Source: Pleomorphomonas sp. PLEO (GTDB lineage: Bacteria > Pseudomonadota > Alphaproteobacteria > Rhizobiales > Pleomorphomonadaceae). Taken from it: a stretch of 64,000 nt of DNA. Both the position numbers and the translations under genes were made by a program. The stretch covers positions 372,001 to 436,000 of the forward strand of contig NZ_CP166625.1 in the NCBI RefSeq assembly GCF_041320595.1, written 5' to 3'. Shown in pieces: positions 43,983 to 64,000 of the stretch (its first letter is position 1; each line of letters begins with the position of its first letter). Below the pieces are notes generated by a model. The model did not search any database, was not told the DNA's origin, and saw only the letters and a list, made by a program, of their open reading frames with translations.

Positions 43983-44067
43983 GCCCAGGTGGCGGAATTG
44001 GTAGACGCGCACGGTTCAGGTCCGTGTGCCGCGAGGCGTGAAGGTTCGAGTCCTTTCCTGGGCACCA
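43983..44067 (+). tRNA. tRNA-Leu (anticodon CAG)
   Basis: The 85-base gene folds as a class II tRNA. Acceptor stem GCCCAGG (43983-43989) pairs with CCTGGGC (44057-44063); discriminator A and an encoded CCA end at 44067. The anticodon arm CACGG-TTCAGGT-CCGTG gives CAG. A variable arm (TGCCGCGAGGCGT region) precedes the T-loop GTTCGAGTC. It reads CUG codons. Confidence 0.98.
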
Positions 44068-60666: not shown

Positions 60667-61452
60667 CTATTCGGCCGACAGCGCTGCCACTACCTCGTAG
60701 CCGTCGCCGCGGCAGAAGGCGCGGCTGATCTCTACCGCGCGGCCACCCGCGGTGTAGCTCACCCGCTCCACACGCATCGCAGGGGTTCCTTCCGGCAACT
60801 CCATGAGCCCCGCCTCGACCGCGCCGAGTGCCACCGCACGAAAACGCTCCACCGCGCGCGCTGCCGCCAGTCCCACGCCGGCGAGCGCCTCGGCTGGTGA
60901 CACAGTGGCCGCTTCGGCATCAATCGTTGCGGCCGGCAGCGTCGTCAGCTCCAGGATGCGCGGGCGGTCCGCTACGCAATGAAGGCGATAGAGCCTCAGC
61001 ACCCGCTCGCCAGGGCCGAGGCCAAGCGTCATCGCTTCCGGAGCCGACGGCGGTCCGGTCAACCGGTCGACGAGGCGAGTCTCCACCGGTTCGCCCTTTT
61101 CGGCCAGTTCATCGGCGTGCGAACGCAACAGGGTCCGTCGGCGGCTGACCGCTTCGGATGGCCGATCATCACTTGTCTGGGCAGATTTGGTGTCGGCCAC
61201 ACTAGAGCCGCCTCCCGGCCGTGTGGCCACCAGGCCATCGGCGACGAGCGGTGCCAGCGCCTGCCGCACCGTGATGCGTGAAATGGAAAGACCGGCGGCG
61301 ATCGCTCGTTCGGAGGGTAATGGCGCACCGGTTGAAAGTCGTCCATCAGCGATGGCGGCCCGCAGTGCGACTTCGAGGCGACGACAGAGCGGCGCGTCCC
61401 CGCCCCGTCCGCGCCAATCTTGGCCAACCACGCGGGTAAAGGGCTCCATCAT
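60667..61452 (-). CDS. GntR-family regulator, HutC/UTRA type
   Basis: This 261-aa protein has an N-terminal winged helix (LRAAIADGRLSTGAPLPSERAIAAGLSISRITVRQALAPLVADGLV) and a C-terminal UTRA ligand domain (VLRLYRLHCVADRPRILELTTLP). HutC-type regulators often bind sugars or amino sugars. The start overlaps the stop of the BadF-type kinase by 4 bp, so the two form one operon. The inferred role is control of that operon by an amino-sugar ligand. Confidence 0.92.
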   Translation of the reverse strand: MMEPFTRVVGQDWRGRGGDAPLCRRLEVALRAAIADGRLSTGAPLPSERAIAAGLSISRITVRQALAPLVADGLVATRPGGGSSVADTKSAQTSDDRPSEAVSRRRTLLRSHADELAEKGEPVETRLVDRLTGPPSAPEAMTLGLGPGERVLRLYRLHCVADRPRILELTTLPAATIDAEAATVSPAEALAGVGLAAARAVERFRAVALGAVEAGLMELPEGTPAMRVERVSYTAGGRAVEISRAFCRGDGYEVVAALSAE

Positions 61453-62318
61453 GGGGCAACGTCCTTCCTTGCTAGGCTGAGCGCGCCATCAAGGGCATCG
61501 CCAACGGGATCGGCAAGAAGGCCGGCGAAGCGGTGCCCTAGGCGCGGCCGGTAACTGGCCGCTAAGCCGCCCATCAGGGCCACACGTCCTATTCCCTCAG
61601 TGACGAGACGGCCGATCAATGCTTCGATCTCCGCCGTCCCAGCCATCACAATCGCCTTGGCCACCGGATCGTCGGCCTCGGCATGGCTGAATACGACTGG
61701 CGCCAGTGCCGCCCAGTCGGCCGGTCGTGCCGTCTTGCCGAAGGCTGACAGCGTTGCCGCCGACCCGCCCAATCGCTCAAAAATGGCAGCCGTCATCGGG
61801 GAGGAGGCTGCTAGCCCCTCATGCGCTTCGAGCGCCCGGCGCGCCGCGCGCCGGCCGATCACCGCGCCCGAACCGCCATCGGAAAGAGACGGTCCCCAGC
61901 CACCGACCCGAAAGCGCCGCTCGCCCACGCGCCCGTAACCTTGGCTGCCAGTCCCGATGATCAGGATGCCGCCGTCGCCACCGGCCAGAGCGCCCTCGAG
62001 AGCGATCTCGGCGTCGGTGACGACGCGGAGATCGCGGAAACCGAAAGGCGCGGCGGCAAGCTTAGCGGCCACTTTAGGGTCCCCCGCGCCAGCGGCGCCG
62101 ATGACCGCCACGATGTCGGCTCGGTCATGACGGGAAAGGCCGGCGACGGATAGCGCCATGTTCGTCGCCGCCTCGAGCGCTGCCGCGGCTCCCTCCAGAT
62201 CATTGCCAGCGTTTGCCGGGCCGCCAACGCCCTCGCCGAGCCAATGGCCGGAATAGTCGGCAAGACGGGCACGAGCACTGCTTCCGCCACCGTCCATGCC
62301 GAGAAAAAAACGCCCCAT
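61449..62318 (-). CDS. N-acetylglucosamine kinase-like protein (BadF/BadG/BcrA/BcrD family)
   Basis: This 289-aa actin-fold kinase has the phosphate 1 motif FLGMDGGGSSARARL, an adenosine-like GLIIGTGSQ-type segment (ILIIGTGSQGYGR) and GGWGPSLSDGGSGAVIGRRA. The closest known enzymes phosphorylate N-acetylglucosamine. With a HutC-type regulator in the same operon, a role in amino-sugar use or cell-wall recycling is likely. The substrate is inferred. The region upstream holds the GAGTC cluster. Confidence 0.85.
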   Translation of the reverse strand: MGRFFLGMDGGGSSARARLADYSGHWLGEGVGGPANAGNDLEGAAAALEAATNMALSVAGLSRHDRADIVAVIGAAGAGDPKVAAKLAAAPFGFRDLRVVTDAEIALEGALAGGDGGILIIGTGSQGYGRVGERRFRVGGWGPSLSDGGSGAVIGRRAARRALEAHEGLAASSPMTAAIFERLGGSAATLSAFGKTARPADWAALAPVVFSHAEADDPVAKAIVMAGTAEIEALIGRLVTEGIGRVALMGGLAASYRPRLGHRFAGLLADPVGDALDGALSLARKDVAP

Positions 62319-62630
62319 GATGTTCAGCTACCGCCTCACCCCAAGGCGTTCGCTCGCCTCGCAAATGAGCAAAGCTCGTCGCCGGCCCCCTGGCAACTGG
62401 CATCACGGCGGTATCAACGACTATCTCGGCGGGCTGCCCGAATAGACCGGTATTTCCGGCTGATTACCAGATGTTTTGGTCGGTCCAAGCCGGGCTCTGA
62501 GTCCAGGCCATGAGTCCGAATGAGAGTCCAAAACGGAGTCCGGATAGGAGTCCGGAGTCATGGCTGGGCTCTGTTGCGAGAGTCCGGCTAGGATTGCGTC
62601 GTCCCGCTAAACCCTCTCATGTCCGGCAGG
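62319..62630. other. Intergenic region between gabD and the kinase operon
   Basis: This 312-bp region has no gene that I can support. Its proximal part (62319-62498) would hold the kinase promoter; ACCA-N7-TGGT near 62466-62480 is a weak inverted repeat. Its distal part holds the GAGTC cluster. Confidence 0.5.
62499..62585. repeat. Cluster of seven GAGTC (GANTC) sites, five with 12-13 bp spacing
   Basis: GAGTC begins at 62499, 62512, 62524, 62536, 62548, 62555 and 62580; six of the seven are followed by C. The first five are spaced 13, 12, 12 and 12 bp. GANTC is the target of the cell-cycle methyltransferase CcrM in alphaproteobacteria. By base composition about one site per 300 bp would be expected, so seven in 87 bp is a strong excess. 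The sequences between the hexamers differ, so selection or expansion acted on the hexamer. Confidence 0.85.
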
Positions 62631-64000
62631 TTAGCGGTCGAGGCCGGCGATTAGTAGATATTTTTTCTCAACATATTCGTCGATGCCATGGTGCGATCCC
62701 TCGCGACCATTGCCACTTTCCTTGACGCCACCGAACGGCACCAGTTCGGAAGAGATGGCGCCGGAATTGATACCGACCATGCCGGCCTGGAGCCCTTCGG
62801 CAACGCGGAAGATGCGGCCGACGTCCCGGGCGTAGAAATAAGACGCGAGACCGAACTCCGTATCGTTGGCGAGCCGGATCGCTTCCTCCTCAGTCTCGAA
62901 ACGGAAAACTGGGGCGAGCGGACCGAAGGTCTCCTCGCGCGCGACCGTCATGGTAGCCGTCACGCCGGTCATTACCGTCGGCTCGAAGAAACTGCCGCCA
63001 AGCGGCGACCGGACACCGCCGGTCACAACCTTCGCCCCCTTGGCGAGCGCATCGGCGACGTGCGCCTCGACTTTCTCCACGGCCTTCGCATTGACAAGCG
63101 GCCCCTGCGTCACGCCCGGTGTCCGCCCGTCACCGAGTTTCAGCGCGTTGACCGCAGCGGTAAGCTTTTGCACAAAGGCATCGTGGATGCCGGACTGGGC
63201 GTAGATGCGATTGGCGCAAACGCAGGTCTGGCCCATGTTGCGGAACTTCGAGATCATCACCCCCTCGACGGCAGCGTCGAGGTCGGCGTCGTCGAAGACG
63301 ATGAAGGGGGCATTGCCGCCGAGTTCGGTGTAGATCTTCTTCACCGTGCCCGCGCACTGGACAATCAGCTTCTTGCCGACTTCGGTCGAGCCGGTAAAGG
63401 AGACGACACGCACAGCCGGGTGGCTCGTCAAGACGTCGCCCACCACCGACGACTTGCCGGTGACGACATTGAGAACGCCCTTCGGCAGCCCCGCGCGCAC
63501 CGCAAGACGGGCAAGCGCCAGGGCGGTGAGCGGCGTCTCAGATGCGGGCTTGACCACCGCCGTGCAGCCGGCGGCAAGCGCCGGCGCCACCTTGCGGGTG
63601 ATCATCGCGGCCGGGAAATTCCATGGCGTAATGGCGGCAACGACGCCGGCTGCCTCACGGGTCACCAGCACGCGGGCACCGTTCCTCGGCGAAGGCAGCG
63701 TTTCGCCCGCGATACGCTTGGCTTCCTCGGCGTAGAACTCGACGTAACCGGCGGCATAGTCGATCTCGCCCAAAGCCTCGGCAAGCGGCTTGCCCTGCTC
63801 GGCAGTCATGATGAGCGCGAGATCATCGCGGTTCTCGATCATCAGTTCGTACCAGCGGCGCAGAAGACGCGATCGCTCTTTGGCAAGAAGCCGCTTCCAG
63901 GCTGGCAAAGCGCGCTCGGCCGCCTCGACGGCCCGTGTCGTGCCATCCGCTTCTGTCAGCGGGACACGCCCAACGACGGCGCCCGTAGAGGGATCTGTCA
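62631..64000 (-). CDS. gabD: Succinate-semialdehyde dehydrogenase, N-terminus cut by window edge
   Basis: The visible 456 codons, including the stop at 62631, encode an NAD(P)-dependent aldehyde dehydrogenase of the GabD type that oxidises succinate semialdehyde to succinate, the last step of GABA degradation. The frame stays open to 64000, where the sequence TDPSTGAVVGRVP is a usual position near residue 30-45. The motif ITPWNFPAAMITRK, FTGSTEVGKK, the glutamate in YTELGGNAPFIVF and the catalytic cysteine in NMGQTCVCANR are all present. An internal start at 63908 is not the real start. Confidence 0.93.
   Translation of the reverse strand, partial: TDPSTGAVVGRVPLTEADGTTRAVEAAERALPAWKRLLAKERSRLLRRWYELMIENRDDLALIMTAEQGKPLAEALGEIDYAAGYVEFYAEEAKRIAGETLPSPRNGARVLVTREAAGVVAAITPWNFPAAMITRKVAPALAAGCTAVVKPASETPLTALALARLAVRAGLPKGVLNVVTGKSSVVGDVLTSHPAVRVVSFTGSTEVGKKLIVQCAGTVKKIYTELGGNAPFIVFDDADLDAAVEGVMISKFRNMGQTCVCANRIYAQSGIHDAFVQKLTAAVNALKLGDGRTPGVTQGPLVNAKAVEKVEAHVADALAKGAKVVTGGVRSPLGGSFFEPTVMTGVTATMTVAREETFGPLAPVFRFETEEEAIRLANDTEFGLASYFYARDVGRIFRVAEGLQAGMVGINSGAISSELVPFGGVKESGNGREGSHHGIDEYVEKKYLLIAGLDR

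Follow-up and report, generated by a model that had tools for sequence, protein, structure and literature searches.

CcrM methylation requires the sequence GANTC and nothing else. The RctB sites of Vibrio chromosome II form an iteron-type array with a methylation site in each unit. In a study of CcrM in Caulobacter, the 200 bp upstream of the start codon were taken as the promoter window for GANTC sites (PMC3973325). In PMC3667746, the probes used to test GcrA carried none to three GAnTC sites. The extended GcrA motif YGAKTCG has been doubted outside Caulobacter, since no preference for it was seen in Brevundimonas (PMC7987155). Among regulators of the HutC type, NagQ can use direct repeats of TGGTATT (PMC4494728). 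Rho-loading (rut) sites are searched for by RhoTermPredict as an excess of C over G with cytosines every 11 to 13 nt in 78 nt (PMC6407284).

The locus analyzed here is a noncoding gap (62319-62630) of the window, i.e., of the whole stretch of 64,000 nucleotides that was analyzed. As the open reading frame (ORF) positions confirmed, it lies where the preliminary description had placed it, namely, between the end of a gabD-type gene (62631) and the start of a kinase gene (62318), both on the minus strand. The gene names given there held in outline. The gabD-type succinate-semialdehyde dehydrogenase (62631..63998, minus strand, with its 5' end outside the window) scored over the cutoff of TIGR01780. 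The regulator gene (60667..61452, minus strand) encodes a GntR-UTRA (HutC-type) protein; its GntR and UTRA domains were over the Pfam cutoffs, and its best NCBIfam model, HutC, was below cutoff. The kinase (61449..62318, minus strand) is of the BadF/BadG type, and its nearest NCBIfam model, NagK, was likewise below cutoff (181.7 versus 370 bits). The sole tRNA gene found in the window was tRNA-Leu (cag) at 43983-44067.

Seven GAGTC pentamers in 87 bp, five of them spaced 12 to 13 bp, had been reported for this gap, and their positions were confirmed: they start at 62499, 62512, 62524, 62536, 62548, 62555, and 62580 (span, 62499-62584), with steps of 13, 12, 12, 12, 7, and 25 bp. Six of the seven are followed by C, the exception being the site at 62555 (GAGTCA; 62555..62559, plus strand), which has no counterpart in the other 11 genomes that carry the array. 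The first five sites are GAGTCC hexamers and constitute the core array (62499..62553, plus strand), whose steps are, except in L006 and L007 (see below), the same in relatives. The last GAGTCC (62580..62585, plus strand) is kept in 11 of 12 genomes and reads GAGTTC in L012. The sequence GGGCTC, a near-complement of GAGTCC, occurs twice on the plus strand. The copy at 62566..62571 may be an inverted half-site or the 5' arm of an RNA hairpin, and the copy at 62492..62497 is separated by one base from the first GAGTCC, with which it forms a near-palindrome. The conservation of the latter is weaker: GGGCTC or GGGCTT was found at position -7/-8 of the first site in 6 of 12 genomes and GGACTC in L007, and the remaining genomes differ.

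The GAGTC cluster is not a product of chance. GANTC, described beforehand as usually sparse, was found to be depleted, with 89 sites observed and 332.5 expected in the window (all 100 shuffles gave higher counts) and 587 sites in 20 evenly spaced stretches of the chromosome (400 kb), corresponding to 1.47 per kb compared to 3.43 per kb by base composition. Another 20 stretches, nine of them adjoining the window, contained 593 sites (1.48 per kb). Similar clusters at random positions, a possibility raised at the outset, were not observed in the 800 kb sampled by these 40 stretches, where the densest 100 bp contained 4 GANTC; the rest of the window reached 3. A Poisson estimate for at least seven GANTC in 87 bp is about 1e-10 per place. 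In the same genome, a pattern of three GAGTC at 12-bp steps (the triple motif) matched without mismatch solely at the array, and GAGTCC-N6-GAGTCC was found at the array locus only; with two mismatches, there were 3 further places for the triple motif and 7 for a control pattern. These data support an array that is single copy within the two patterns searched. A broad scan of contigs for the triple motif returned at least 116 matching stretches, which came from many unrelated phyla. Five stretches of unrelated bacteria (L117, L082, L098, L099, and L061) had three to thirteen GAGTCC triples at 12-bp steps each among the matches listed, and these are possibly coding repeats.

To determine the distribution of the array, DNA of the gap was searched in 60 relatives. 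Seventeen matched, the array being covered in 12 and the gabD end only in 5. The triple motif was present in 12 of 20 family genomes, and these 12 all belong to the genus of the window. The array is thus in place in 12 of the 14 genus genomes, rather than absent or out of alignment in close relatives, as had been considered; the two genus members lacking it are G007 and G008. A scan of 397 genomes of the order detected the triple motif in 13, namely, the same 12 and, by motif match alone, G040. Within the genomes searched, the array is confined to one clade and one locus. In a tree of gabD proteins (17 rows; 8 of the 14 inner branches were weakly supported), the 12 array genomes were on one side of one branch (100/100) and G007 and G008 on the other. 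The G007 protein fell together with the one from G014, a member of another genus (99/96), and a long stem led to the array clade; gabD may have been replaced or transferred in this history. In G007 and G008, which lack both the array and the conserved block described below, a gene for a GNAT acetyltransferase separates gabD from the kinase (L013 1595-2128, L017 1789-2364, and L224). Behind the kinase of G007 come GntR and ORFs that, judged by eye, resemble a SIS-domain sugar-phosphate enzyme and NagA.

Counted by position, the 12 arrays contain 71 main sites (six each, except for five in L006, which lost one unit), of which 69 are GAGTCC. The two exceptions, AAGCCC in L004 and the GAGTTC of L012, have lost GANTC entirely, and none of the 71 has changed at N alone. 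Counted by pattern, there are 71 GAGTC, including the extra GAGTCA of this genome and an extra site in L010; C is next in 70 of them, and every GANTC within the 12 arrays is GAGTC. Since nearly all main sites are exact, the two deviating ones lost GANTC, and none varied at N alone, the conserved unit is, as judged from these alignments, GAGTCC and not GANTC. Columns were compared in the nine genomes with the same layout, leaving aside L006 (lost unit), L007 (11-bp step), and L008 (31-bp last step). Invariant were 38 of 42 site columns (GGGCTC included) versus none of 45 spacer columns, and the mean pairwise difference was 2.1% for sites versus 58.1% for spacers; for reference, fourfold sites of gabD differed by 36.8% (11 genomes, without L007). 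The constraint coincides with the hexamer, whose positions 0 to 5 differed in 0 to 4% of the comparisons; position -1 differed in 56% and position +6 in 44%. The sequence before the last site is GGGCTC in 11 of 12 genomes and GGGCTT in the other, and is thus GGGCTY throughout, at a distance of 14 bp from the last site (13 bp in L008). Spacers 2 to 4 were 78% purine on the plus strand (158 of 203 positions; 53 to 94% among genomes), compared to 57 to 71% for the other spacers and the loop and 48% for the stretch before the array. Because letters and steps were kept while the letters in between changed, the array is apparently read in a sequence-specific manner by some putative factor. Among the proposals of the preliminary description, the hexamer constraint agrees best with its alternative of another factor that would bind GAGTCC.

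A second conserved noncoding block was found at 62368..62439. Its core, CGGTATCAACGACTATCTC, is located at 62409-62427, with AGCAAAG 41 bp before the core, a spacing observed in 12 of 12 genomes, and GGGC-N-GCCC after it. Ten array genomes carry the 19-bp core without a mismatch; in the remaining two, G001 and G004, it has one and two mismatches. Among the matches listed for the 397 order genomes, there was no exact match outside the array genomes; with two mismatches allowed, 93 genomes matched, mostly at single places in other genera, and these matches look like chance or coding sequence. The distance from core to array is 89 to 92 bp in 11 of 12 genomes (113 bp in L005), and the intervening stretch is 58 to 61 bp long in 11 of 12 and variable in sequence. 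The array-gabD distance, counted up to the gabD end from a point set 87 bp past the array start, ranges from 12 to 53 bp. Since the core-array distance is kept while the array-gabD distance varies, and AGCAAAG keeps its spacing to the core, block and array make up one unit that has a geometry of its own. Codon periodicity is absent from the block, with 36/38/38 changes by codon position in the first frame and similar numbers in the other frames, compared to 1/0/32 at the gabD end. A small ORF on the plus strand (62365-62445, 26 codons) was discarded on this ground and since its start codon is lost in relatives. A common fold between block and array was also discarded: arms paired by eye fail in some genomes, and RNAalifold returned no common fold for the stretch between them (in this alignment, the row of L007 was cut to 8 nt of a true length of 59). 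A 17-base piece of the block recurs in three viral contigs, where neither its surroundings nor an array accompany it.

The best explanation, which we hold tentatively and at somewhat less than an even chance, is that the gap regulates the kinase-gntR operon as a DNA region made of two parts, in which the array would serve as a tandem operator for a putative factor. The array would be the distal half, a tandem platform for sequence-specific binding on DNA. The conserved block would be the near half and probably acts as operator/promoter region for the operon's own HutC-type GntR regulator. A putative protein would assemble cooperatively on the row of GAGTCC half-sites, with the inverted half-sites at the row ends. 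Each GAGTCC holds a CcrM target, so that occupancy and methylation may affect each other, and selection would act on more than methylation alone. We infer the nature of the reader as a DNA-binding protein, the roles of the block and of methylation, and, from its position, the kinase operon as the target. In favor of this explanation are the exact hexamers, the inverted half-sites, the distance kept over a variable and foldless stretch, and the regulator gene in the adjoining operon; kinase-gntR and the array co-occur in the 12 array genomes. Several observations count against it: (i) no sigma-70-like promoter was found in 62150-62720, (ii) steps of 12 to 13 bp do not place the sites on one face of B-DNA, (iii) a DNA reader need not impose the purine bias of spacers 2 to 4, (iv) in all 12 genomes, the plus strand has a stronger fold than its shuffles, and (v) gntR is also present in G007 (42% identity), which is without the array. 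The block core contains GGTATC and TATC 10 bp apart, which is no more than a resemblance by eye to the NagQ repeat TGGTATT. When read against the HutC/GntR palindrome NyGTMTAKACNy, the block core did not fit, and GAGTCC did not fit either.

The main rival, unlikely but the strongest of the alternatives, is an RNA element on the gabD-sense strand, either a rut site or another protein-binding 3' region. In this reading, the element, with GGACUC at 12-nt steps amid pyrimidine-rich spacers, would stop gabD transcription ahead of the kinase operon. The array closely follows gabD, and the purine bias of spacers 2 to 4 corresponds to pyrimidine-rich spacers on this strand, on which the C/G ratio is 1.38 to 2.11 in all 12 arrays. 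A chain of six or more YC at 11 to 13 nt was found in 9 of 12 arrays versus 1.9% of background windows. The published rut pattern (C over G and cytosines every 11 to 13 nt over 78 nt) was seen in 12 of 12 but discriminates weakly, as 51% of the background windows on this strand have the C chain and 35% a C/G ratio over 1. On the other hand, Rho needs no exact hexamer, each unit contains GG, and in 11 of 12 genomes the gabD-sense strand shows more structure than its shuffles (mean z, -1.9), which is at odds with the criterion of unstructured RNA. In this genome, there is also a weak terminator-like stem inside the array, and a rut site leaves the tie between array and block unexplained. Should the array prove to be a rut element, an exact sequence constraint on a Rho site would likewise be unexpected.

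Methylation was the basis of the initial proposal of a CcrM-dependent epigenetic switch or protein-sequestering array. The genome, which might have lacked ccrM, contains a CcrM orthologue (best solved structure, 6pbd CcrM, E value of 1.5e-161; RAMA domain) as well as GcrA, and ccrM and gcrA were found in 20 of 20 family genomes, with or without the array (the CcrM match was in three pieces in G015). The array itself is real and aligned in relatives; what the data speak against is the CcrM site as the selected unit. Methylation alone as the object of selection is argued against by the N that never varies, the outside base C, and the bases flanking the hexamer, which differ in 44 to 56% of comparisons. 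Methylation may have a role on top of sequence-specific reading; few hexamers contain GANTC, but the finding was picked because GAGTCC does. It is improbable, in our view, that the array is gated by methylation such that a putative factor other than GcrA reads methylated (or unmethylated) GAGTCC cooperatively and the cell cycle timing of CcrM sets expression of the kinase/GntR operon. If true, this would be a lineage-specific epigenetic switch in which CcrM sites stand in an ordered row and have a reader of their own, and a dedicated multisite CcrM switch outside the GcrA model. The gcrA gene (G000:C1:462023-462547) is located outside the window, some 28 kb from the array (at about 434.5 kb). 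Both are on one contig, 27 to 31 kb apart, in seven other array genomes and on different contigs in the remaining four, a proximity that is probably plain synteny.

Also improbable is a small noncoding RNA on the plus strand that would extend from the block through the array, with the GAGUCC repeats as seeds for pairing or protein binding and a 3' hairpin, GGGCUC-N8-GAGUCC. The geometry shared by block and array agrees with it, as does folding of the plus strand, with z values between -1.0 and -7.3 and a mean of -3.0 in the 12 genomes (60 shuffles per genome). Nearly all genomes can form the 3' hairpin, in which one pair, a G-U, would be A-C on the opposite strand. However, covariation is nearly nil (covariation term, -0.66; 3 of the 37 pairs predicted), relatives do not share the strong fold of this genome, and neither an Rfam family nor, in 62150-62720, a promoter was seen. 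An Rfam search of 62319-62720 gave five matches up to an E value of 10, all under their gathering scores (the best with 25.4 bits versus 80). In this genome alone, 62480-62600 forms a very strong plus-strand hairpin (-67.5 kcal/mol; z, -7.6), and relatives fold differently. Jointly, the two RNA readings amount to a serious contender to the DNA operator, although the less probable one. Two further RNA candidates were rejected. There is no tRNA or tmRNA at the array locus, and a CsrA sponge, with a GGA per unit on the minus strand, was considered, but CsrA was found in 0 of 21 genomes (13 of the genus), in a search whose control matched in 3 of 14 known genomes.

More doubtful still is a plain cluster of CcrM methylation sites that would be read by GcrA or act via hemimethylation. 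Beyond the general presence of ccrM and gcrA, such a cluster is suggested by the retention of a scarce motif at this place in 12 genomes and by the enrichment of conserved promoter GANTC among genes misregulated without CcrM in Caulobacter (PMC3973325). Two of the seven sites (62499 and 62512) are within 200 bp upstream of the kinase start, and the other five are further away. Against it stand the fixed N and outside base, the presence of ccrM and gcrA in genomes without the array, and the equal conservation of GGGCTY, which contains no GANTC. The motif YGAKTCG fits none of the 71 sites on either strand, a weak argument given the Brevundimonas result (PMC7987155).

Neutral expansion of a 12-bp unit, raised in the preliminary description, is very improbable and contradicted by spacers that differ more than the gabD fourfold sites next to nearly invariant hexamers and GGGCTC, and by a spacer likeness of 38% between repeats within a genome versus 48% for the same repeat across genomes, although Tandem Repeats Finder reported a weak 12-bp repeat (62512-62554, 3.6 copies, 74% matches). 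A mobile element was rejected, as 62319-62640 had no match in plasmids or phages. So was a part of the replication origin: a change in GC skew pointed near the window (sign change at about 0.45 to 0.55 Mb), but parS-like sites are at 608 to 610 kb. These are two sites within 2 kb (G000:C1:608128-609730), and a further site with 2 mismatches is at 2.15 Mb; between 312 and 556 kb, no parS was found at up to 3 mismatches, and there was a single exact DnaA box. The parS-like sites and the skew place the origin region roughly 0.1 to 0.2 Mb from the array.

The preliminary description knew of no array of this type, and searches of open-license literature likewise gave no paper with such an array in its title or the beginning of its abstract; a search of PMC5172544 for five words on the subject had no hit. 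By their contrast with the spacers, the sites make up a clean footprint of the putative reader. Since this footprint was seen in one clade and at one locus among the genomes searched, the array offers a practical starting point in the search for a new factor that binds DNA or RNA.

Comparison with the systems introduced above reveals likenesses and differences. (i) As in CcrM/GcrA promoters of Alphaproteobacteria, GANTC sites precede a gene, and the genome has both ccrM and gcrA; unlike them, the array is an ordered row of exact GAGTCC with N and the outside base fixed. (ii) The operon encodes a GntR-UTRA regulator, and NagQ of this type uses direct repeats, but GAGTCC fits neither NyGTMTAKACNy nor TGGTATT. 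(iii) The array shares with rut sites the C over G and the 12-nt spacing on the gabD-sense strand past the gabD stop and differs from them in the exactly conserved hexamer and the GG in every unit. (iv) Like the RctB sites and other iteron or tandem-operator arrays, it repeats a short unit directly and at a fixed step, and every unit holds a methylation site; it is some 175 kb away from the parS sites. The array is best described as a real and conserved recognition array particular to this lineage, a variant of tandem operator or iteron-like sites.
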